Source: Chryseolinea serpens
GTDB taxonomy: Bacteria > Bacteroidota > Bacteroidia > Cytophagales > Cyclobacteriaceae
DNA length: 64,000 nucleotides
Assembly: GCF_900129725.1 (NCBI RefSeq)
Contig: NZ_FQWQ01000001.1
Location: 2,976,001-3,040,000 of the forward strand
Reading direction: 5' to 3'
The stretch's first letter is position 1; the number at the start of each line of letters is the position of its first letter. The notes beneath the pieces are model-generated. The model was not told the DNA's origin. It worked only from the letters and a program-made list of their open reading frames with translations, and did no database searches. The position numbers and the translations under genes are program-made. Shown one piece after another: positions 52,948-64,000 of the stretch.

Positions 52948-53685
52948 CTATTTCCGAATGCAAATCCATGGGAATACGCCTTGAGATAATTTGATCACTT
53001 TTCTCTTGAGACGAGAAATGACGGACTTGGGATTGTACAACACCTTATGGTTGTAATGCGCCAGTTGTTGGAACGAATGATGAAAATACTTGCCACACAT
53101 TTCAGGCGTCGCTGTCAAAACAAAATAACGTTCGCTTCTTTGCCTGGCGAGTGAGACATCGTCTTGTGATCCGTAAAACGGGCTGTCCATGATATGTATT
53201 TCTCCGGTGTCTTTTAGAAGAGATAATAATTTTGAAATCAGTTCATTGAAATTTTCAAAATACTGAACTGAGGCCGCCAGAATGATCGCATCGATGGATT
53301 GCTTTCTAAATACATCGCGGAAAATATTCACATACATAAAATATAAATTCTGCTGCTCACCAAAAGCATGTGTGGCCTGCCTCAGTTCAGTGCGTTGCAC
53401 ATCGACACCGATTACCAGGGCATCCAAATTTCTGGCGAGCATGGCAGAGAGCCAGCCGTTACCACAACCCACTTCCAAGACGACCAAGCTATTTTTCTGA
53501 CTTAAATAGGTTACGAGTTTTCGCGACGAAAATTGCCGCACTTGCCATTCTTTATAGTGAGGATGCGTCGTGGGCACTACAGGAAGTTTACGAATGGCCT
53601 CGATTGGCAATATCCTTTTCTCCTGATCTCTTACTTTAATATAACAGGTCTCAAAGTCTTCGGAGACGAACGAATCGTCTTGCAC
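52948..53685 (-). CDS. Class I SAM-dependent methyltransferase
   Basis: A Rossmann-fold methyltransferase of 245 residues. Motif I is VVLEVGCGNGWLSAML, the ribose-binding acid is in VIGVDVQRTEL, and motif IV lies around DAIILAASVQYFENF. Then come LLSLLKDTGEIHIMDSPFYGS and a basic C-terminus. It starts at a GTG; an in-frame stop lies about 50 nt upstream. A different frame upstream opens with an ATG near 53743 (MTLQDILIDQ), so a start problem or small frameshift is possible. The base composition is A/T-rich compared with the core genes. It stands on the opposite strand, about 390 nt before the radical SAM operon, and may belong to the same accessory locus. Confidence 0.8.
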   Translation of the reverse strand: MQDDSFVSEDFETCYIKVRDQEKRILPIEAIRKLPVVPTTHPHYKEWQVRQFSSRKLVTYLSQKNSLVVLEVGCGNGWLSAMLARNLDALVIGVDVQRTELRQATHAFGEQQNLYFMYVNIFRDVFRKQSIDAIILAASVQYFENFNELISKLLSLLKDTGEIHIMDSPFYGSQDDVSLARQRSERYFVLTATPEMCGKYFHHSFQQLAHYNHKVLYNPKSVISRLKRKVIKLSQGVFPWICIRK

Positions 53686-54072
53686 GTATACTTTATCTTC
53701 TTCACGAAAGCAGCCTGGTCAATAAGAATGTCCTGGAGCGTCATTTTGCTGGCAAGTATAAATTAGGAGATCAACACTCAATTTAACCATTGTAAAGATT
53801 TCGTAACACAACAAGGAACACGATGAAGGGTAATGATTTTAGGATTGCCGTATTGAAGCCCAACGTATTCTCCGAAAAAATACCGTTTTTTTTATCGATG
53901 ATTACCACATCCCATAAATTTCACTACCTTTAAACGTCCGTCAACTCCCCTGACGTTTTACCCCATTTCAGTTTTTTTGCATTCTTATTCCGTGGCTTGG
54001 ACAGCAACTGCCCAGTTTGCACCCTGTTTTCGCCTGCGGAAGAAAGGATAGAAACTCAAAACTTTGCGTCGT
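53686..54072. other. Divergent intergenic region before the radical SAM operon
   Basis: About 390 nt, A/T-rich. It contains an inverted repeat AAACGTC (53932-53938) / GACGTTT (53952-53958) and a TACCTTTA -7-like box just before it. A 36-codon frame at 53823 is weak. Promoters for both flanking units must lie here. Confidence 0.45.
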
Positions 54073-55035
54073 ATGACTGTAGCTCTGCCGGACCGCATGG
54101 TGTTTAACGCAGTGGATGAACACATCCTTCGCACCTTGCTCTATTATGACATCTTTCATTATCCCCTGAAGGCGGATGAAGTCCACCGCTTCCTCGGCGC
54201 GCCGCTGGAACACGAAGACTATATCTATTCGCGATTGAGGGTGCTCGCCGCCCATCGCTATATTTCGCAGTTCGGGGATTTTTTTGGCATTCAGCCCGGC
54301 GAGAGCGACACTGTACGCCGGGCGAAAGGCAATGCCGAGGCCGAACGGCTTACGGTACTCGCGCGTAAAAAAGCGCACTTGATTGGAAGCTTCCCGTTTG
54401 TGCGGGGCGTGATGGCCTCCGGTTCGCTATCGAAAGGATATATGGACGAGAAGTCGGACCTGGACTTCTTTATCGTCACCGCCCCGGGCCGCTTATGGAT
54501 TGCCCGGACGTTGCTGGTGATGTATAAACGCATCTTTCTTTTCAACTCGCACAAATATTTTTGTGTGAACTATTTTGTTGACGAGCAACATTTGGAGATT
54601 GAAGAAAAAAATCTATTCACCGCCACCGAGTTGGCCACGGCGTTGCCCTTGTATGGCCCGGAGCAATACCAAAATCTTCTGAAGGCCAATCCCTGGCTGA
54701 CCAATTTCTTCCCCAACTTCCGGCCGCGCACCACCGAAGACGTATTGCCCTCGAAACAACGCGGCCTAAAAAAGATACTCGAAGCATTTTTCAACCTCGC
54801 ACCGTTTTCCAGGCTCGACCATCATTTTAAAAAGATGACCTTGCAACGCTGGGAAAAATTATACCGGCGCGATTATTCTGACGCCGACTTCAAGGTGGCG
54901 TTCAAAACGAAAGATCACGCTTCCAAAAATCATCCCCGCAATTATCAGCGCAAGGTCCTGGATCTGTATGCTGACAAGGTTAAGGCGTTCGGCCTTTCGC
55001 CGTTGCGCAGTTGTGCAGAAGAACCAGGCAAGTAA
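54073..55035 (+). CDS. Nucleotidyltransferase-domain protein
   Basis: A 320-residue protein. An N-terminal winged-helix-like part (about 15-75, HILRTLLYYDIFHYPLKADE) is followed by a minimal nucleotidyltransferase signature. The signature has Gly-Ser at 117-118 (ASGSLSKGY) and acidic residues Asp129 and Asp131 in EKSDLDFFIV, the DxD metal site. The C-terminal half is helical and basic. This pattern is shared by MNT/KNT-type and antitoxin-type transferases; the nucleotide and acceptor are unknown. ATG chosen over an in-frame TTG 9 nt upstream. First gene of the six-gene operon; the next gene starts 13 nt after its stop. Confidence 0.75.
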   Translation: MTVALPDRMVFNAVDEHILRTLLYYDIFHYPLKADEVHRFLGAPLEHEDYIYSRLRVLAAHRYISQFGDFFGIQPGESDTVRRAKGNAEAERLTVLARKKAHLIGSFPFVRGVMASGSLSKGYMDEKSDLDFFIVTAPGRLWIARTLLVMYKRIFLFNSHKYFCVNYFVDEQHLEIEEKNLFTATELATALPLYGPEQYQNLLKANPWLTNFFPNFRPRTTEDVLPSKQRGLKKILEAFFNLAPFSRLDHHFKKMTLQRWEKLYRRDYSDADFKVAFKTKDHASKNHPRNYQRKVLDLYADKVKAFGLSPLRSCAEEPGK

Positions 55036-55048
55036 AAGACAGTGGCGT

Positions 55049-56521
55049 ATGAAGATCCTGTTTACGCATTCGTATTTCTACAAGCGCGACCCCAAACAGT
55101 GGCGCTTCAAACAACCCTACCCGCCGTTGGGCACCATACTGGCCGCGGCCGTCATGCGGACCCAAGGGCATGATGTGGCGTTGGTGGATAACAATCTAAA
55201 GGATGGTCCACACGTCATCGTTCCGGCATTGACCGAACATCGCCCCCAATATGTGGTGATCTATGACGATGGTTTTAACTATCTCACCAAAATGTGTCTC
55301 ACCGTGATGCGCGAGGCAGCCTTTGTAATGGCCGAAGAAAGCCGCAAACACGGCTGCACCGTGATCATCTGCAGCTCCGACGCCACCGATCACTACGAAA
55401 AATATTTTCAGCATCACGTGGACTACGTGATCCGGGGTGAAGGCGAAGAAACATTAAAGCAACTCATCGGCACCCTGGAAAAAGACGGCGACGTGTCGGC
55501 TGTGCAAGGGCTGGCCTTCCAGAAAAACGGGGCGACCATCCTAACGCCGCCCCGGACCGTGCTCCGCGACCTGGATGCCCTGCCCATGCCGGCGTGGGAC
55601 CTTGTAGATATGGAAGCCTATCGCACGCTGTGGTTAAAACATCATGGCTATTTTTCGCTGAACCTGGCCACTACCCGCGGCTGCCCATTCAAATGCAACT
55701 GGTGCGCCAAACCGATCTACGGAAACCGCTATACGTCACGGTCGCCACAGCACGTTGCCGACGAGATCGCTTTCTTATTGGAACACCACCGGCCGGACCA
55801 TTTCTGGATGAGCGACGATATTTTCGGGCTACGGCCGGGTTGGGTGCAGGAATTTAACCGGATTGTAAAAGAGCGAAAGTTGTCTTTTATCTATAAAATC
55901 CAGTCCCGCGTGGACCTTTTGCTGGAAGACGAGGTGATCGACGCCCTGGCCGCCTCGGGAGCCCGAACGGTTTGGGTGGGGGCTGAATCCGGGTCACAAT
56001 CCGTTTTGGATGCCATGGACAAGGGCACTACGGTGGGACAAATCTATGACGCGACCCGCCTCTTAAAGACACATGGCATCGCTGTAGGCTTCTTTCTGCA
56101 ATTCGGCTACCCCGGCGAAACGGAAACCGACATCCAGGCAACCCTGCGGATGGTGCTGGAATTGATGCCTGAGGAAGTGGGAATTTCGATTTCGTACCCC
56201 CTGCCGGGCACAAAATTTTATGAAAACGTGAAAGGACAGCTCCTGGAAAAGCAAAATTGGTCCGATTCCGATGATTTGGCCATGCTCTTTAAAAGCACAT
56301 TTAACAATGCGTATTATAAAGCGTTACACAGGTACGTGCACTACGTGTATCGAAAACAAAAAGGTTATGCCAGTTTGAAGAAACTTATGCGCAGTCCTTT
56401 GCGTCTTACGTATAAGGACCTTAAGCAAGGCCTAGGTACGTTTTATTTCGGCGCCCGTGTCACACTTTTGTCCAAAAGACTTCGTATCTTAAAAGACTCT
56501 ACCATCCCAAATCAGCGGTAA
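55049..56521 (+). CDS. B12-binding-type radical SAM protein 1
   Basis: A 490-residue protein with the layout of cobalamin-binding radical SAM enzymes (BchE/HpnP type). The N-terminal Rossmann-like domain (about 1-140) has PYPPLGTILAAAVM and YVIRGEGEETLKQL. The SAM-radical domain has CxxxCxxC cysteines at 212, 216 and 219 (TTRGCPFKCNWC), then GAESGSQSVLDAM and FGYPGETETDIQATL. No DxHxxG cobalamin-ligand motif is seen, so base-off/His-on B12 binding is unlikely, although B12 may still bind. Such enzymes methylate or rearrange unactivated carbons. The ATG at 55049 is chosen; an upstream in-frame extension overlaps the previous gene. The next gene starts 1 nt after its stop. Confidence 0.88.
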   Translation: MKILFTHSYFYKRDPKQWRFKQPYPPLGTILAAAVMRTQGHDVALVDNNLKDGPHVIVPALTEHRPQYVVIYDDGFNYLTKMCLTVMREAAFVMAEESRKHGCTVIICSSDATDHYEKYFQHHVDYVIRGEGEETLKQLIGTLEKDGDVSAVQGLAFQKNGATILTPPRTVLRDLDALPMPAWDLVDMEAYRTLWLKHHGYFSLNLATTRGCPFKCNWCAKPIYGNRYTSRSPQHVADEIAFLLEHHRPDHFWMSDDIFGLRPGWVQEFNRIVKERKLSFIYKIQSRVDLLLEDEVIDALAASGARTVWVGAESGSQSVLDAMDKGTTVGQIYDATRLLKTHGIAVGFFLQFGYPGETETDIQATLRMVLELMPEEVGISISYPLPGTKFYENVKGQLLEKQNWSDSDDLAMLFKSTFNNAYYKALHRYVHYVYRKQKGYASLKKLMRSPLRLTYKDLKQGLGTFYFGARVTLLSKRLRILKDSTIPNQR

Positions 56522-56522
56522 C

Positions 56523-57320
56523 ATGGCAGCCCCCTTCGATCATATCGCCACCTCCTACGACTCCCAGTTCACGCGGAGCGCCATTGGTCAATTGCAACGG
56601 AAAAGGGTATGGTCCTACCTGGAAAAGATCACCCCCGAATTGAACGGGCTGGAAATCCTGGAATTGAATTGCGGTACGGGGGAAGACGCCTTATTGTTTA
56701 GCGAAAAAGGCTTCAACATTGTGGCTACCGATGTTTCGGAAGAGATGCTGAAGGTGACCATGCAAAAGGCCCAGCAATATTCCATGCAAAACAAGATCAG
56801 CTCCCAATACCTCGACCTGGATAGTTTTGACGACACGCTGTTTGACAAAAAATTCGACCTGGTGTTCTCCAACTTCGGCGGTTTGAATTGCATTAACCCG
56901 GAAGCCATGCAGAAATTGCTGGCCAAAATTCCGTCCATCCTTTCGCCCGGCGGTCGTTTTGTTGCCGTGGTCATGCCCAAATTTTGTCTCTGGGAGACCA
57001 ACTATTTCCTGATGAAACTCCGTTTCCTGCGAGCCTTTCGCCGGATGACCGACAAAGAAGTGATGGCCGATCTGCAAGGCACACAGATGAAAACCTGGTA
57101 TTACACCCCCACCCAAATAAAGAAATGGTCGAAGCACGCTTTCCGTCACGTGACGACAAAGCCCGTAGGATTTGCCATCCCCCCCTCCTATTTTGAAAAT
57201 TTCTTTTCGCGCAAAAAAAGACTGCTGCTTCAACTCAACCGGATGGAGCAAGCGCTGGACCGGTTCTCCTTTCTGGGCGGCATGGCCGATCACTTCCTCA
57301 TCGACCTCCGGCTTCTATGA
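56523..57320 (+). CDS. Class I methyltransferase in the radical SAM operon
   Basis: A 265-residue SAM-dependent methyltransferase. Motif I is LEILELNCGTGEDALL (47-55 core), the ribose acid is in IVATDVSEEML, and motif IV is FDLVFSNFGGLNCI, followed by LSPGGRFVAVVMPKF. The C-terminal region is basic with an aromatic patch (YYTPTQIKKWSKH), and a predicted amphipathic helix precedes it. The substrate is unknown. It lies 1 nt after radical SAM 1 and shares the phrase FxNFGGLNCI with the second methyltransferase (LANFAVLNCI), suggesting that the two are related. Confidence 0.85.
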   Translation: MAAPFDHIATSYDSQFTRSAIGQLQRKRVWSYLEKITPELNGLEILELNCGTGEDALLFSEKGFNIVATDVSEEMLKVTMQKAQQYSMQNKISSQYLDLDSFDDTLFDKKFDLVFSNFGGLNCINPEAMQKLLAKIPSILSPGGRFVAVVMPKFCLWETNYFLMKLRFLRAFRRMTDKEVMADLQGTQMKTWYYTPTQIKKWSKHAFRHVTTKPVGFAIPPSYFENFFSRKKRLLLQLNRMEQALDRFSFLGGMADHFLIDLRLL

Positions 57321-57356
57321 ACTTTATTTTCCCTGCCGCCTAAGCACTGAACAGCC

Positions 57357-58784
57357 ATGGATGTATTGCTTGCGCATGGATATTTTTTAGAAGACGATGT
57401 GAAGGAACAGCGCATCATGCGTCCTTACCCGCCGCTGGGAATCCTCTATATCGCGGCCTACCTGGACAAACATGCAATAAAAAACGAAGTCTACGACACG
57501 ACCTTCTCCTCCAAAAAAAATTTCCAGGACCATTTGCTGCACACAAGTCCGCCACTGCTGGCGCTTTATGTGAACCTGATGACAAAGCTGAACATATTGG
57601 AGATCGTTCGCTTTGTTAAAAAAAATCTCCCTGCCACCCGCGTCATCCTCGGTGGCCCGGAAGTGAAACATAGCGCTGAAAATTTCCTGCGCGCCGGGGC
57701 CGATGTCATCGTGATCGGCGAGGGCGAAGAAACTACGTTGGAGTTGGTGACAAACCTCTCTCAACACGCCTATCGTCCCGGAGCATTTCTGAATGACATA
57801 AAAGGCATTGCCTTTCTTCAAGACGACCTCTTTGTTGAAAACCCGGAACGCGACAAGATCAAGGACATCAACGAACTGATACCGGCCCGTCACAAAATAG
57901 ACCTTCATCTGTACCTCAACGCCTGGAAAGAACGGCATGGCACCAATGCGATCTCGGTGAGCACCATGCGTGGTTGTCCCTACACGTGCAAGTGGTGCAG
58001 TCGTGCGGTTTATGGATTAAGTTACCGGAGGCGATCGCCCGAAAAAGTTGCTGACGAACTGGAAGCCCTTCAGCGCGACTACCGGCCCGACAGCCTATGG
58101 TTTGTGGATGATGTTTTTACGATCAGTCACAAATGGCTGACTGCTTTTCGCGACGAGCTGCGAAAACGAAATGTGACCATTCCCTACGAATGCATTACGC
58201 GCGCCGATCGCATGAACGATGAAGTGGTCCGGCTGCTAAAAGAAACGGGATGTTTCCGCGTGTGGATCGGCGCGGAAAGCGGCTCCCAAAAAGTGATCGA
58301 CCTCATGGACCGCCGCGTGGACGTGAACCAGGTGCGCGACATGATCCGGCTCACCAAAAATTACGGCATCGAAACCGGCACCTTCATCATGCTGGGCTAT
58401 CCCGGCGAAACGGAAGCCGACATCGAGGAAACTATTCACCATCTCAAAGAATCCAACCCTGATCATTTTACGATCACGGTAGCTTATCCTATCCGGGGTA
58501 CGGAGCTTTACCAGGAGGTGGAAGCGGATCAGACTACTTCTTTGGATTGGACCACCAGTACGGACCGGGAGATTGATTTCAAGCGGTCGTATTCGAGACG
58601 GTATTATGATTTTGCGGTGCGGCATGTGATCAATGAAGTTCAGTGGGCAAAAGGATCGCAACGCGCCCTGGATGTTAAGAACATGCTCCTCAAAGTGAAA
58701 TCGGTGGCAGCGAAGCTGGGGATGATCTGGCACCGGCAACGGTCGTTGGCAAAAGCCCTTCACTACAGCAACTCAACGGAATAA
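57357..58784 (+). CDS. B12-binding-type radical SAM protein 2
   Basis: A 475-residue paralogue of the upstream radical SAM protein. The N-terminal B12-domain-like part has RPYPPLGILYIAAYL and VIGEGEETTLEL. CxxxCxxC cysteines are at 207, 211 and 214 (TMRGCPYTCKWC). It shares WFVDDVF (versus WMSDDIF), GAESGSQKVIDLMD and GYPGETEADIEETI with protein 1, in the same order. No DxHxxG motif. The duplicated gene suggests two related steps on one scaffold. It follows methyltransferase 1 by 36 nt and precedes methyltransferase 2 by 11 nt. Confidence 0.88.
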   Translation: MDVLLAHGYFLEDDVKEQRIMRPYPPLGILYIAAYLDKHAIKNEVYDTTFSSKKNFQDHLLHTSPPLLALYVNLMTKLNILEIVRFVKKNLPATRVILGGPEVKHSAENFLRAGADVIVIGEGEETTLELVTNLSQHAYRPGAFLNDIKGIAFLQDDLFVENPERDKIKDINELIPARHKIDLHLYLNAWKERHGTNAISVSTMRGCPYTCKWCSRAVYGLSYRRRSPEKVADELEALQRDYRPDSLWFVDDVFTISHKWLTAFRDELRKRNVTIPYECITRADRMNDEVVRLLKETGCFRVWIGAESGSQKVIDLMDRRVDVNQVRDMIRLTKNYGIETGTFIMLGYPGETEADIEETIHHLKESNPDHFTITVAYPIRGTELYQEVEADQTTSLDWTTSTDREIDFKRSYSRRYYDFAVRHVINEVQWAKGSQRALDVKNMLLKVKSVAAKLGMIWHRQRSLAKALHYSNSTE

Positions 58785-58795
58785 ACGCTCAACCA

Positions 58796-59479
58796 ATGGC
58801 AAGACCCATGGAGACCATCACGTCGTTTTATGATGCCATCGCCGGGCAATACGATGCTTTTCTGACCGACCACGATGCAAGGGCGCGCAAAACAATTGCA
58901 CAGGTTTTCACAGAAACCGTGCCCCGCGGCGTTGTGCTTGATTTTGGTGGTGGCACAGGACTCGATCTTCCGTGGCTTCAGGAATACTATTCGACAATCC
59001 TGTTTTTGGAGCCCTCGTCAAATATGAGAGAAGAAGCTCGGAAAAAGGTTACATCGTCGGAGCTCGTGCGTTTTGTTGATCGGCAAACAGAATTCAGCGA
59101 ATGGTCGGAGCAGGCGCTTCCTTTCCAGGAGAAGGCCGATGGCGTTCTCGCCAACTTCGCAGTCCTCAATTGTATAGAAGACACGTCGAAGTTTTTTGAA
59201 AAGATTGCCCTGGTCACCTCCAAGCAATCTCATGTTGTAGCCGCCTTGCTGGATCCGCGCGTGAGCCATATTCTTAAAAAGAATTCTGTTTTTTCTGCGC
59301 TCCGCATGTTAGTGACCAACTCCTTAACCATCCACCATCAACGCGACGGAGTGCTTCACAAAACTTTCGTGCACAGCCTGCAAAAACTCAGAAACGCCGC
59401 TTCGCCTTATTTTGATATGCTTTCGTTTACAGCGATCCCTCCATCGGATTTTGTTTTGGTAATCTTTGCGAAAAAATGA
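58796..59479 (+). CDS. Second class I methyltransferase in the radical SAM operon
   Basis: A 227-residue SAM-dependent methyltransferase. Motif I is VVLDFGGGTGLDLPWL (49-57), the post-I acid is in LFLEPSSNM, and motif IV lies near GVLANFAVLNCIEDT. It starts with an N-terminal helix typical of small-molecule methyltransferases (TSFYDAIAGQYDAFL). The last codons overlap the next gene by ATGA, so translation is coupled. Substrate unknown. Confidence 0.85.
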   Translation: MARPMETITSFYDAIAGQYDAFLTDHDARARKTIAQVFTETVPRGVVLDFGGGTGLDLPWLQEYYSTILFLEPSSNMREEARKKVTSSELVRFVDRQTEFSEWSEQALPFQEKADGVLANFAVLNCIEDTSKFFEKIALVTSKQSHVVAALLDPRVSHILKKNSVFSALRMLVTNSLTIHHQRDGVLHKTFVHSLQKLRNAASPYFDMLSFTAIPPSDFVLVIFAKK

Positions 59480-60390
59480 AGTCCTTCTTGAAGTCAATCG
59501 CGAAACGTGCTCTCTTTGGGGATCGTGTCGCAAAAAATTTTCCCCCCATCCGGATCGCCATCGGAAAGATGGAAGAAAAAGTTTTCCTGTCCTGGCACGA
59601 TGATCGACTCGATATCAGCGAACGGCATTGCATCGTTTGCCACGCACCCTTTTGCCTCACGGTTTGGCTTACTGCAGCTGAATCGATTAGAGTCCAAACG
59701 AATATCCTAATGATTTCCGTAGCCACGGGACAAAAAATCCATGCAGAGATTACTGCGTCGGTTATCAAAAAAATAGAAACAGAAAATGGCTTTCTGTTCG
59801 TGGTGAGAGCGGAGAAGGCCTCTTGCTATCAGAAGAATGCATTGTTCCAGTTGTTCATGCGGCGATACTTCAGACATAAAAATACTCCGCAAGAAGACAA
59901 GTTCTATGCGGCCGCGTATTCCTATCCACGGCGCGTTATTGCGGTTTCTTTTCAGGAAGCATCATATTATAATATTTTCCCAATGGATTTTCAGTGTTCC
60001 ATTGCCGGGACCGATCTATACGTGCTAGGCTTACGCACCACGAATGTTACGCTTGATAAAATTATCCAATCAAAACGGGTTGTCATCGGAGACACTGCAA
60101 GAGCAGATTTGGATGTGATCTATGCTTTGGGAAGAAATCACAGCGCCAGTCCTCCCCCGCAGGACAGCCTCGCGTTCGAGGTGCTTAAAAGTGAACGATT
60201 TGGTTTCCCCGTGCCGGTGTTCTCAGCATCTTATAAGGAAATCGATTTAATAGCACATCACAATCTCGGAACGCATACGATGCTTATCGGCCGAATAGCC
60301 AATGCCAAGTTGTTGTGGGCGGCGGAGTCTTATCTTTATCATATTCATTTCCTACAATCCTTTAGGATTCGTCATAACGCCGCGCAGTAG
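59476..60390 (+). CDS. Flavin-reductase-like (split barrel) domain protein
   Basis: A 304-residue protein without an obvious family at its N-terminus. Residues about 148-285 look like a flavin reductase/FMN-binding split barrel: SYPRRVIAVSFQEASYYNIFPMDF, a VTLDKIIQSKRVVIGD strand, and GTHTMLIGRIANAKLL near the end. If so, it may supply electrons (reduced flavin) to the radical SAM enzymes or oxidise or reduce a product; this is inference. It is the last gene of the operon, coupled by ATGA to methyltransferase 2 and followed by a strong terminator. Confidence 0.65.
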   Translation: MKSFLKSIAKRALFGDRVAKNFPPIRIAIGKMEEKVFLSWHDDRLDISERHCIVCHAPFCLTVWLTAAESIRVQTNILMISVATGQKIHAEITASVIKKIETENGFLFVVRAEKASCYQKNALFQLFMRRYFRHKNTPQEDKFYAAAYSYPRRVIAVSFQEASYYNIFPMDFQCSIAGTDLYVLGLRTTNVTLDKIIQSKRVVIGDTARADLDVIYALGRNHSASPPPQDSLAFEVLKSERFGFPVPVFSASYKEIDLIAHHNLGTHTMLIGRIANAKLLWAAESYLYHIHFLQSFRIRHNAAQ

Positions 60391-60432
60391 CACATTAGAG
60401 TAATAGGGCTTGCGTTAGCAACAAAACAGATA

Positions 60433-60460
60433 AGAGGACCGAATAAAAACTCGGTCCTCT
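60433..60460. terminator. Bidirectional terminator between the operon and the repeat protein
   Basis: Arms AGAGGACCGA (60433-60442) and TCGGTCCTCT (60451-60460) are perfect complements with an 8-nt loop. T-rich sequence follows on both strands, and the flanking genes are convergent. Confidence 0.85.
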
Positions 60461-60468
60461 TTCGAAGG

Positions 60469-62586
60469 TCATTTAGTTAGAATCATTCTTTTTGTGTCCA
60501 GAATTTTGCCGTCCAATAAAAGGGCATATATATACATACCTGCTCCTAGTTCGTTAGCTGAAATTCTCACAGTTGCGTCACCCCGCTCCTTTACATTGAT
60601 TGCTTTTAATTCCTTTCCGTCCAGCGCATATATCATTACATCCGCGCGAAGCGTAGATTCCGGCAATTTCATTTTGATCTCTGTGTCGACTGAAAATGGA
60701 TTCGGCACATTTTGAAATAGAACAGCCTCAACCGATACACTATCATTCGCCTTAGAGTCTGTTGTGGCAATTTTATTCAGCAAAATATCCATTTTCTGCT
60801 GTTGGTCTTCTAATTTTTGAGTGAGTTCCTGAACGGCTCTTACCAAAGGCACTACAAAATCAGAGTACCGAATGCTGTAGTGGTCATTGTCATTTTGAGG
60901 CAAATCCACGCCATTAAAGACGACGCCTAACTTTTCTACTGCATCTTGTACTTCTTGGGCGACAAAACCAGTCTGTCTAACTATTTTCTCCTTTTTAGCA
61001 GACTGACCTTGTTCCGGTAATTTTGTAGCGCCGAGAAAACGATTCAGCGACTCGAAATCAATTGAATAGCTGACGGGTCTGAGATGATTAATAAAATCAA
61101 GGCCTGCCACATCCTCCTTGATGTCCTTTTTAAAACGCCCATCCGAAAAAGTAGACCACGAAACCTGCCCGCTTATTTTGACAACGGCAGTATTCCCTAC
61201 TGCAACCGTGTTGTTTGCCGTAGGAATTGCATTATATCCCAAAGCCGTAGTATTGTCAAGTCCAGAGGTAGATGTCGGTCCTGACAAACTGCCAAACGCG
61301 CTATTGGAGGAGCCAATTGTATTGTTATACAATGCATTGTTCCCAACAGCAGTGTTATGAACACCAGCAGAATTGGAAAATAAAGCGGTATAACCCATCG
61401 CTGTATTATAATAACCCAATGCATTCGTGTATAGCGCAGCATGGCCTACAGATGTATTGTGGTAACCTATGTTTGTAAGATATTGAGACGTGTATCCGAC
61501 TGCGGTGTTCCCCTCGCCAGTGGATATAGAGTGAAGCGCCTTAAATCCAATCGCTGTACTCCAACCAATATTCGCTCCTGAATATAACGCTTCAAAGCCT
61601 ACCGCAGTGTTAAAACTTCCACCCGTATTAGAAAATAATGCACTCCCGCCGATGGCGAGATTGTACGATCCCGTGGTATTCGAATAGAGCGCATCTTGAC
61701 CATTTGCTGTGTTGAAATCTCCAATCGTGCTACCATAAAGGCTTCGATAACCCGTTGCGGTATTTCCCGCTCCTACTGTGTTCGAAAATAGTGAATTGAA
61801 TCCATTCGCCGTGTTATTTGAAGCTAGGTTGTTTTGAAGGGAACTAGTTCCAAAAGCAGTGTTGTTGGCTCCTGTCGCGTTAGCATATAAACTTCTGTAT
61901 CCGTTTGCAGTATTCCCTGACGCTGTTGTGTTGGAGTAGAGCGCTTCTTGTCCACTGGCTGTATTAAAAGCGCCAGTTGTGTTAAAATTTAGCGCCTGGT
62001 ATCCGATCGCACTATTGGAAAAGCCAGTCGTATTTGAAAACAGCGATTTAAATCCAATTGCCGTATTGTAGGACCCCAAATTGTTCAATAAAGAATTCGT
62101 TCCCGCGGCCGTATTGGCTGAACCAGAAACGTTGTAGAAAAGCGAAAAACTCCCCAAGGCCGTATTGTTTATTCCAGTTGTATTACTATAGAGTGCCGTA
62201 TATCCAATGCCGCTATTATCTGTCCCTGTCGTATTTTTATACAACGAGTATGCGCCAATTCCTGAGTTGTCAGTTCCGCTGGTATTGAAGTAAAGGGATT
62301 GGTATCCAACTGCAGAATTGAACGACGCCGTGGTGGTGGTAAAAAGAGCTTCCGACCCTATCGCCGTGTTTCGCTCACCCGTTGTTAAAGATCTCCCAGT
62401 CGACTCGCCGAAAAAGGAGTTGTTTGCACTCGTACCTAACGCAGCATTTCCCGTGAAATATCCAAAGAAACTATTGTTCGTTCCCAAAGTACCTGAAGAG
62501 GTCCCGTAGGGTGTTGTGGTTTGGGCCTTCAAGCCCACATAACAAAGTAATAACAGGGCAAGGATTTTAATTTTTTTCATAATCAT
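60469..62586 (-). CDS. T9SS-exported repeat protein with an S74 chaperone domain
   Basis: A 705-residue exported protein (signal MKKIKILALLLLCYVGLKAQ). Residues about 30-440 hold about 24 copies of a 16-18-residue beta-roll unit of the type NTAxGxxALxxNTTGxx, like trimeric adhesin/tail-fibre stalks. An endosialidase-chaperone (peptidase S74) domain begins at about 481 (SDGRFKKDI) and includes TGFVAQEVQDAVEKLG and YSDFVVPLVRAVQEL, followed by a short coiled coil. The C-terminal about 87 residues (from 619) are a type A T9SS sorting domain (VLFQNVPNPFSVDTEI and AGMYIYALLLDGK). Two ATGs 6 nt apart are possible. Base composition is A/T-rich. Probably a surface adhesin exported through the T9SS. 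Confidence 0.85.
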   Translation of the reverse strand: MIMKKIKILALLLLCYVGLKAQTTTPYGTSSGTLGTNNSFFGYFTGNAALGTSANNSFFGESTGRSLTTGERNTAIGSEALFTTTTASFNSAVGYQSLYFNTSGTDNSGIGAYSLYKNTTGTDNSGIGYTALYSNTTGINNTALGSFSLFYNVSGSANTAAGTNSLLNNLGSYNTAIGFKSLFSNTTGFSNSAIGYQALNFNTTGAFNTASGQEALYSNTTASGNTANGYRSLYANATGANNTAFGTSSLQNNLASNNTANGFNSLFSNTVGAGNTATGYRSLYGSTIGDFNTANGQDALYSNTTGSYNLAIGGSALFSNTGGSFNTAVGFEALYSGANIGWSTAIGFKALHSISTGEGNTAVGYTSQYLTNIGYHNTSVGHAALYTNALGYYNTAMGYTALFSNSAGVHNTAVGNNALYNNTIGSSNSAFGSLSGPTSTSGLDNTTALGYNAIPTANNTVAVGNTAVVKISGQVSWSTFSDGRFKKDIKEDVAGLDFINHLRPVSYSIDFESLNRFLGATKLPEQGQSAKKEKIVRQTGFVAQEVQDAVEKLGVVFNGVDLPQNDNDHYSIRYSDFVVPLVRAVQELTQKLEDQQQKMDILLNKIATTDSKANDSVSVEAVLFQNVPNPFSVDTEIKMKLPESTLRADVMIYALDGKELKAINVKERGDATVRISANELGAGMYIYALLLDGKILDTKRMILTK

Positions 62587-62940: not shown

Positions 62941-64000
62941 TTATTTCCCAACATTTCCCTTAGATATCATTGAATCGATAAACAGACGATAATTTTCAGC
63001 CGCCCAATCGGCGTTATAGGATAGCACATATTGGCGGGCTTCTCTGCCCAGCATATTGTAGCGAAGAGGATCTGCAATTAACTGAAGGGTCCTTTCTGCT
63101 AATCCCTCAGCGTCGCCGGGAGCTGCTACAACGGCCAATCGCTCGCCGACATCAGCCAACATCCCTACAGCCGTGCCACAAACGACCACTCCGCTCGTCA
63201 TGGCCTCTTCCACCACGGCACAACTACCCTCAAAACGGGAAGTATGCAGGAGAATGTGAGCTTTTTGAAAACAGGCAGGTATTTTTTCCTGCGCTATGGC
63301 ACCTTCAAAGTCGACCAAGTTCTCAATGTTCAATGTTTCGAGCAATTGCCGAACACGGGGGATATTGTAGCCATCGCCAATCACCGTCAATCGGCAGGCA
63401 ACGCTTTTCGAAATGATGGAAAACGTCTTGAACATGGTCTCCTGATCCTTGATCGGGCTGAGATAGGCGATGTGAAGGAATTGAACCGGCAACGAAATTT
63501 CTCTTTGATGATAGGGGAATTTCTTGCTGTCTATTCCTAAAATCAGGGTATTGATCTTTCTCGTGGTGGGCAAACTACGCAAAGCAACTTCTTTTTGAAA
63601 ATCGGAAATCGTCACTAGTTCGTCGGTTTGTGCGCACACTCTTCTCGTGATCTCTGCCAGCCAGGGGATGATCAAATTTCCATGTCCAATATCCGGTAGG
63701 GCGGCTGCCTCACAGGCAATGAGTTGAACAACCAGTGGTTTGCGAATAAGTCTTCTTAACAGGAGGGCGTACCATCCTGTTGGGTATACGGAAACGGCGA
63801 ATATGATATCAAAGGGTCGAAACAGATGATCCCATGCGCATCGCAGTGTAAGGCAAAAATATTTTACCCGGCCAGGCAGGCGCCAACGTACCGGTTGTCT
63901 GACTTTTATCGCCGCAGGGATCTGTGTTGTATCAATTGGAACGTAAGAGTAATACACAATATCATACTGGAGTGACAATCTCTTAAACAAGTTTGCAACG
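62941..64000 (-). CDS. Family 4 (GT-B) glycosyltransferase, partial
   Basis: A retaining GT-B glycosyltransferase truncated at its N-terminus by the window edge; the frame is still open at 64000. The C-terminal sugar-nucleotide domain has LHIAYLSPIKDQETMF, VIGDGYNIPRVRQLL and the acidic motif HTSRFEGSCAVVEEAMTSGV (the E-x7-E pattern), then GTAVGMLADVG. The N-terminal domain shows SVYPTGWYALLL and ITRRVCAQTDELVTISDFQKEV. It likely transfers a hexose in surface polysaccharide or lipid glycan synthesis. Its direct link to the radical SAM operon is unproven. Confidence 0.85.
   Translation of the reverse strand, partial: VANLFKRLSLQYDIVYYSYVPIDTTQIPAAIKVRQPVRWRLPGRVKYFCLTLRCAWDHLFRPFDIIFAVSVYPTGWYALLLRRLIRKPLVVQLIACEAAALPDIGHGNLIIPWLAEITRRVCAQTDELVTISDFQKEVALRSLPTTRKINTLILGIDSKKFPYHQREISLPVQFLHIAYLSPIKDQETMFKTFSIISKSVACRLTVIGDGYNIPRVRQLLETLNIENLVDFEGAIAQEKIPACFQKAHILLHTSRFEGSCAVVEEAMTSGVVVCGTAVGMLADVGERLAVVAAPGDAEGLAERTLQLIADPLRYNMLGREARQYVLSYNADWAAENYRLFIDSMISKGNVGK

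Follow-up and report, generated by a model that had tools for sequence, protein, structure and literature searches.

A nucleotidyltransferase, radical SAM protein and methyltransferase gene set co-inherited in the Bacteroidota, with a probable role in surface sugar or lipid modification

Our analyses concern a stretch of 64,000 nucleotides (nt) from the 8.36-Mb genome of Chryseolinea serpens (referred to as the window; G000:C10:2976001-3040000), and within it a run of six plus-strand genes, designated A to F, the first three of which encode a nucleotidyltransferase (NTase; A), a B12-type radical S-adenosylmethionine (SAM) protein (rSAM1; B) and a class I methyltransferase (MT1; C). A, B and C constitute a co-inherited unit in the phylum Bacteroidota, with a second radical SAM gene (rSAM2; D) as a frequent extra, and genes E and F are lineage additions that do not belong to the core. 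The A-B-C enzyme set is real, widely spread and, as far as our searches reach, undescribed: no account of it was found in the titles and the starts of abstracts of the open-access literature searched (subscription papers and preprints lay outside this search). It is also narrower and more strongly defined than the six-gene biosynthetic unit put forward in the original prediction, which had been made from the sequence of the window. This set, which often has more radical enzymes and glycosyltransferases nearby, probably modifies a surface sugar or lipid. The six genes are as follows:

54073..55035, + strand: A, nucleotidyltransferase, core; ATG start at 54073, alternative TTG at 54064
55049..56521, + strand: B, rSAM1, predicted B12-binding-like domain and radical SAM core (Pfam, motif), core
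56523..57320, + strand: C, MT1, class I SAM methyltransferase (PF13649, 2.8e-15), core
57357..58784, + strand: D, rSAM2, paralog of B (Pfam), frequent optional partner
58796..59479, + strand: E, MT2, class I methyltransferase (PF08241, 1.1e-09), lineage-specific
59476..60390, + strand: F, N-terminal domain and C-terminal split-barrel flavin-reductase-like domain (Pfam, Foldseek), accessory

Co-occurrence and gene order of A, B and C

The six open reading frames (ORFs) are separated by gaps of 13, 1, 36 and 11 nt, followed by a 4-nt overlap between E and F, and the positions originally given for this same-strand run are exact. Across 296 genomes sampled evenly from the phylum, A (detected at E≤1e-25) is present in 24 genomes and B (E≤1e-60) in the identical 24, which represent 21 of 140 genera. 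The two genes lie on one contig in all 24 cases, with a gap of at most 4,488 nt that is below 300 nt in 19 of them (in G695, where two contigs each carry part of gene A, the gap was taken from the part next to B). C accompanies them in every one of these core genomes, no more than 10.7 kb from B, with a single match per genome at E≤1e-25. Homologues scattered without their partner genes, named beforehand as an observation that would speak against the unit, are thus not seen for A and B and are seen in part for C. A second radical SAM gene of the B/D type is found in six of the 24 core genomes, each time within 10 kb of B; D itself (E≤1e-100) stands in the gene order of the window in 8 of 390 genomes, and the set is hence patchy.

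Gene order was compared in 85 loci, which are the best rSAM1 matches (80 among the matches listed and five from further relatives) and as a selection favour B; L018 and L020 were left out as lying on the same contigs as L024 and L025, and L019 as lacking B, and the near-duplicates L027 and L028 are both counted. In 66 of these loci A immediately precedes B on the same strand, and 74 have an A somewhere in the locus; C immediately follows B in 72 (four at a contig edge), and D is the second gene after B in 37 (six at a contig edge). The 66 adjacent A-B pairs include 12 with a 4-nt and 20 with an 8-nt overlap, as judged from mechanical ORF starts, and in eight loci A lies on the opposite strand to B, mostly just behind C. 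Eleven loci have no scorable A. The genomes of nine of them carry a full-length A on another contig, and the pairing of A and B therefore holds without linkage, with stops flagged in three of these nine unlinked matches (G705, G706 and G711); L076 (G708) shows just a piece of A behind C, truncated by the end of the contig, and for L050 (G703) no A was shown. Among five relatives from the same genus, A-B-C-D is found in four (G001 to G004, in G004 split over two contigs) and not in G005, and the complete six-gene order in G001 only. The proposal that the six genes form one unit is hence upheld in that they recur together and in order, and has to be narrowed in that the conserved unit is A-B-C with D as a frequent extra, since E is strongly matched in only 2 and F found in 12 of the 85 loci.

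Some individual loci merit separate mention. In L074 a gene for an AadA_C-type protein with an NTase-like motif (L074:7299-8120) is located between rSAM1 and MT1; as a stand-in for A it was rejected, a full-length A being present elsewhere in that genome. One gene is common to the surroundings of A in L135 and L136 and those of B-C in L072 and L091; in L136 this gene encodes an M14 peptidase. At L058 and G705:C907, a contig labelled Thermoanaerobaculia has rSAM1 and MT1, with A in its assembly, and is possibly a binning contaminant from the Bacteroidota.

Characteristics of the encoded proteins

As judged from its sequence, A retains the NTase motif. The NTP_transf_2 domain (PF01909) scores 20 bits against a Pfam cut-off of 21, and a motif of the SGSxxK...DxD type is kept in 73 of 74 A homologues, the sole exception being that of L057, the N-terminal third of which aligns poorly. 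In an alignment of 40 homologues (the window protein and 39 of 61 eligible homologues), the residues K116, D124, D126, C159, N161, Y162 and E181, among others, are invariant; a further set, A5, consists of the window and 22 others. Residue numbering starts at P, position 54088, five residues past the ATG at 54073, where the window query used in the Pfam, NCBIfam, PHROGs and alignment runs, and in the results derived from them, also began. For the family invariants Cys159-x-Asn161-Tyr162 and Asn175...Glu181, no explanation could be named from among known NTases.

The structure of A is predicted with a mean local confidence score (pLDDT) of 93.1. Its catalytic core gives partial, weak Foldseek matches to MNT/MntA, AadA and kanamycin NTase (best E 5.5e-03; query TM-score, TMq, at most 0.27 among the 50 rows listed), with nothing at E≤0.001, and for its N-terminal part there is a weak match to AF1382, a small protein. 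Searching PDB sequences with a profile gave one chance-level row (E 0.47), and PHROGs gave no match to A and one chance-level row for F (E 0.082). The GS...DxD motif together with the NTase core fold and its weak MNT/AadA matches places A in the Pol-beta superfamily, and we read the predicted structure as a winged helix, an NTase core and a helical C-terminal domain, the winged helix being suggested by the AF1382 match.

B and D both carry the cysteine motif of radical SAM proteins and a putative B12-binding-like domain. The Radical_SAM family (PF04055) is matched by B at 2.5e-19 (70.5 bits) and by D at 3.5e-25 (89.5 bits), against a cut-off of 29.5, and the B12-binding family (PF02310; cut-off 32.1) scores 31 bits in B (2.5e-07), just under the cut-off, and 51.4 bits in D (1.2e-13), above it. 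The CxxxCxxC motif is kept in 84 of 85 homologues of B and in 39 of 39 of D. The two proteins are paralogs sharing 32–35% identity, and the curated models nearest to both are BchE, then HpnJ and PhpK, all scoring far below their cut-offs: 166.1 (B) and 176.2 (D) bits against 481.35 for BchE (TIGR02026), 131.8 and 134.1 against 577.6 for HpnJ (TIGR03471), and 107.8 and 160.5 against 600 for the PhpK-type P-methylase (TIGR04479), with 101 and 134.5 against 360 for the B12/radical SAM model of lipid biosynthesis (TIGR04072). Solved relatives of B and D include 9ccb, 6fd2 (apramycin oxidoreductase), TokK and CysS. That two radical steps act on one scaffold, as first proposed, is not shown, D being a paralog of B that is often absent. 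All six proteins score below the cut-off of every curated NCBIfam model, in support of the original prediction. The rSAM2 gene of L006 (G016:C4:61512-62903) has one in-frame TGA; either this gene is disrupted or its sequence contains an error.

Strong matches to E are confined to L016 and L101 among the 85 loci. Of 37 testable D loci, 11 (L016 included) have a methyltransferase gene behind D on the same strand, and by phmmer only that of L016 is a detectable homologue of E. F scores 25.3 bits for Flavin_Reduct (PF01613) against a cut-off of 27, which its homologue in L044 exceeds (29.6), and in its predicted structure (pLDDT 84.5) the C-terminal half matches SgcE6 best (Foldseek E 2.0e-09), followed by other flavin reductases. 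The homologues of F (E≤1e-5), two of which are weak (L059 and L103), have a further radical SAM gene in view in 8 of their 12 loci (seven without the atypical L036), and in G003 the F homologue lies 3.5 kb from rSAM2. In L101, from Aestuariivivens, E and F lie side by side after A-B-C-D and ahead of a third radical SAM gene (rSAM3), and because of this placement they look like accessory parts of a wider locus. The operon has no oxygenase gene beside the flavin-reductase-like F.

Genomic surroundings and interpretation

The gene for rSAM3, a third B12-type radical SAM protein of about 503 amino acids, is found in 14 of the 296 genomes, all 14 of which carry the core, and it shares the core contig in 13 of them at a distance of at most 16.6 kb. 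It is present in 23 of the 46 loci longer than 19 kb; L036 and L078 lie outside that count and are included among the 28 loci with a further radical SAM gene, although their proteins are not typical rSAM3. In varying subsets, GT4 glycosyltransferases, a PglK/MsbA-like exporter, a SPASM radical SAM protein and an amidohydrolase also recur nearby. The window genome illustrates this wider locus: rSAM3 (C10:3042713-3044215) lies 2.7 kb beyond the window end, with three GT4 genes before it and a methyltransferase and an amidohydrolase gene behind it, and genes for a SPASM radical SAM protein, a ZIP transporter and the flavin transferase ApbE follow in a row on the other strand (L175:9788-12783), which brings four radical SAM genes within about 17 kb. 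The six-gene run can hence not be called self-contained, as had been supposed. Representatives of recurrent neighbour clusters in other genomes are GT2, GT4, GT9, GT87, Wzy_C, PMT_2, FkbM methyltransferase and polysaccharide deacetylase; a sulfotransferase was seen once, the ABC exporter is nearest to PglK and MsbA (below their cut-offs), and housekeeping genes also recur, with DNA polymerase I in eight loci. The features flanking the operon in the window are:

60432..60461, no strand assigned: 13-pair stem-loop in the interval between F and the convergent S74 gene, terminator-like, scored on the minus strand
52948..53685, - strand: divergent class I methyltransferase upstream (Pfam), not core
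62941..64000, past window end, - strand: GT4 glycosyltransferase (Pfam), nearest of three consecutive GT4 genes

Both limits of the run that had been described, viz. the closing terminator-like stem-loop and the divergent upstream boundary, are confirmed by these features, and among eight relative loci the divergent methyltransferase has a match in G001 alone. Promoter-like sites are at chance level (nine found versus 7.1 expected, sd 2.7). The S74 (endosialidase chaperone) gene at 60469-62586, convergent with the operon, contains many similar internal repeats and probably encodes a surface protein, to which the G001 locus has two matches.

We propose, with a probability of about 45%, that A-B-C, with or without D, forms the core of a Bacteroidota tailoring pathway not described before. 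Its substrate would most likely be a polar scaffold (a sugar, cyclitol or lipid headgroup) destined for a lipid-linked surface glycan. Whereas A, B and C are observed to be coupled, we infer the substrate, the nucleotide and the chemistry along the following lines. A would attach a nucleoside monophosphate (NMP) to the scaffold, to serve as a handle or to activate it; B, together with D and rSAM3 where present, would then carry out radical C-H chemistry, either C-methylation or a rearrangement or oxidation of the BchE/HpnJ type; MT1 would methylate a heteroatom; and the neighbouring glycosyltransferases would attach the product, with the ABC exporter flipping the carrier to bring it to the surface. 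In some lineages F would probably supply reduced flavin or electrons to a step that is radical or oxidative in nature. A precedent for a nucleotidylated substrate is provided by the B12-dependent radical SAM enzyme Fom3, which methylates cytidylyl-2-hydroxyethylphosphonate (PMC8158854). A more far-reaching and doubtful version of this proposal is a "tag-then-radical" class of pathways: an unrecognised NTase family would put an NMP on a building block of a surface glycan or lipid, and up to three B12-type radical enzymes would then rebuild this block (by C-methylation, contraction or dehydration) into a surface group new to glycobiology.

The link to glycans is suggestive. It was assessed by comparing the neighbours of the first 13 of 16 core loci listed with 16 control stretches at round coordinates in 10 genomes, with p-values that ignore genome relatedness. 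Radical_SAM neighbours number six, four of them rSAM3, versus at most one in the control ("at most" because the family is outside those listed for the control). Methyltransferases are borderline, with 9 of 123 neighbours versus 2 of 133 control ORFs, or 8 of 121 versus 2 of 133 without a stray MT1 (p 0.05); the 123 neighbours include two core genes below the score thresholds, viz. one MT1 (L155) and one NTase (L166). For GT4, which is enriched, the figures are 12 of 123 versus 2 of 133 (Fisher p 0.005, uncorrected for the choice of family and the clustering of glycosyltransferase genes), or 12 of 121 without the two core genes (p 0.004).

A number of points weigh against the proposed glycan-tailoring pathway, of which the uncorrected GT4 statistic is one. 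GT4 genes are present in all 24 core genomes anyway (10–35 in each), several cores (e.g. G700 and G644) have no GT4 within 10 kb among the matches listed, and GT2 is not enriched (5 of 123 versus 5 of 133 control ORFs). The unlinked A genes, in Saprospiraceae-like loci, are surrounded by unrelated genes, with no B, C or glycosyltransferase recognised alongside, and MT1-like genes also occur without A or B in 6 of the 272 remaining genomes. No DxHxxG motif was found within the first 200 N-terminal residues of any of the 85 B, 39 D and 30 further radical SAM homologues (the last set holding a few, from L036 and L078, unlike typical rSAM3), so that cobalamin use by these proteins is not shown; its absence is still compatible with cobalamin, since TsrM binds cobalamin in a His-off manner (PMC8992657). 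Lastly, A, with its putative winged helix, could act on RNA or protein.

Among the alternatives, a diffusible natural product of aminoglycoside- or phosphonate-like type, with the NTase serving in tagging or self-protection, is unlikely. The resemblance of B and D to AprD4- and PhpK-type enzymes, the SPASM radical SAM, methyltransferase, GT4 and amidohydrolase genes of the locus, the AadA and kanamycin NTase fold matches of A and the AadA_C-type protein between B and C in L074 are consistent with such a product; however, a PEP-mutase-like (phosphoenolpyruvate mutase) EDK...NS pattern is absent, by a crude motif test, from 2,417 ORFs in 88 loci, and the 25 commonest of the 155 neighbour families include no aminotransferase or cyclitol-synthase family. 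It is quite unlikely that A is a regulator that nucleotidylates a partner protein (e.g. B) in the manner of MntA/HepT, with the radical SAM proteins and methyltransferase forming the pathway proper: MNT/MntA are the best fold matches of its catalytic core, but with the low scores given above, while the MntA antitoxin model (NF047752) scores 12.8 bits against a cut-off of 60 and HEPN is not among the 25 commonest neighbour families. Pol-beta NTases and radical SAM enzymes act on RNA in other systems, which, with the AF1382-like, putatively winged-helix part of A, would suit a unit that modifies tRNA or other RNA; this we regard as improbable in view of the patchy occurrence (24 of 296 genomes), the GT4 and exporter neighbours, and the best scores of B and D being to small-molecule enzymes of the BchE/HpnJ/PhpK type, with those of MiaB type far lower. 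Maturation of a ribosomally synthesized and post-translationally modified peptide (RiPP) with an unseen precursor is very improbable, for the weak scores of B and D to RiPP radical SAM models (TIGR03975, ApyD) are far below cut-off among the best 25 listed, and the widest family of 709 intergenic small ORFs (73 loci) spans three loci, with no conserved precursor among them. The RiPP and phosphonate readings are accordingly disfavoured, leaving the RNA, regulatory and diffusible-product readings beside the glycan-tailoring pathway. A role in anti-phage defence was rejected, PADLOC giving only generic radical SAM and methyltransferase similarity (best 1e-15, to the methyltransferase part of mad2).

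Through complete co-occurrence in the 296-genome sample, an orphan NTase family is linked to one particular B12-type radical enzyme, so that the two can be tested jointly. Should the proposed chemistry prove correct, it would represent a further route, besides that of fosfomycin type, where a substrate is made ready for radical modification by nucleotidylation, and a modified residue not known before would join the surface glycans of the Bacteroidota.

Comparison with known systems

The likeness of A to MntA, AadA and kanamycin NTase consists of the NTase core fold (weak matches) and the GS...DxD signature, whereas A differs from them in its extra N-terminal and helical C-terminal parts and has neither a structural match at E≤0.001 nor a match by sequence. 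F shares the predicted fold of its C-terminal half with the split-barrel flavin reductases SgcE6, HpaC and PheA2, but has an N-terminal domain of its own and 11–19% identity in the rows listed. B and D are putatively of the same B12 type as HpnJ and the TIGR04072 family, radical SAM proteins named for hopanoid or lipid pathways, although they score far below both cut-offs. BchE, the best-scoring model for both, combines a B12-binding domain with a radical SAM core, as B and D putatively do, and it acts after a methyltransferase; B and D differ from it in scoring far below its cut-off and in the NTase partner found here. The fosfomycin pathway differs in that Fom1 is an NTase of another type than the Pol-beta-type A, and no PEP-mutase-like motif was found near the A-B-C loci. 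The likeness to Fom1/Fom3, in which a B12-dependent radical SAM enzyme works on an NMP-linked substrate (PMC8158854), would lie in this combination.

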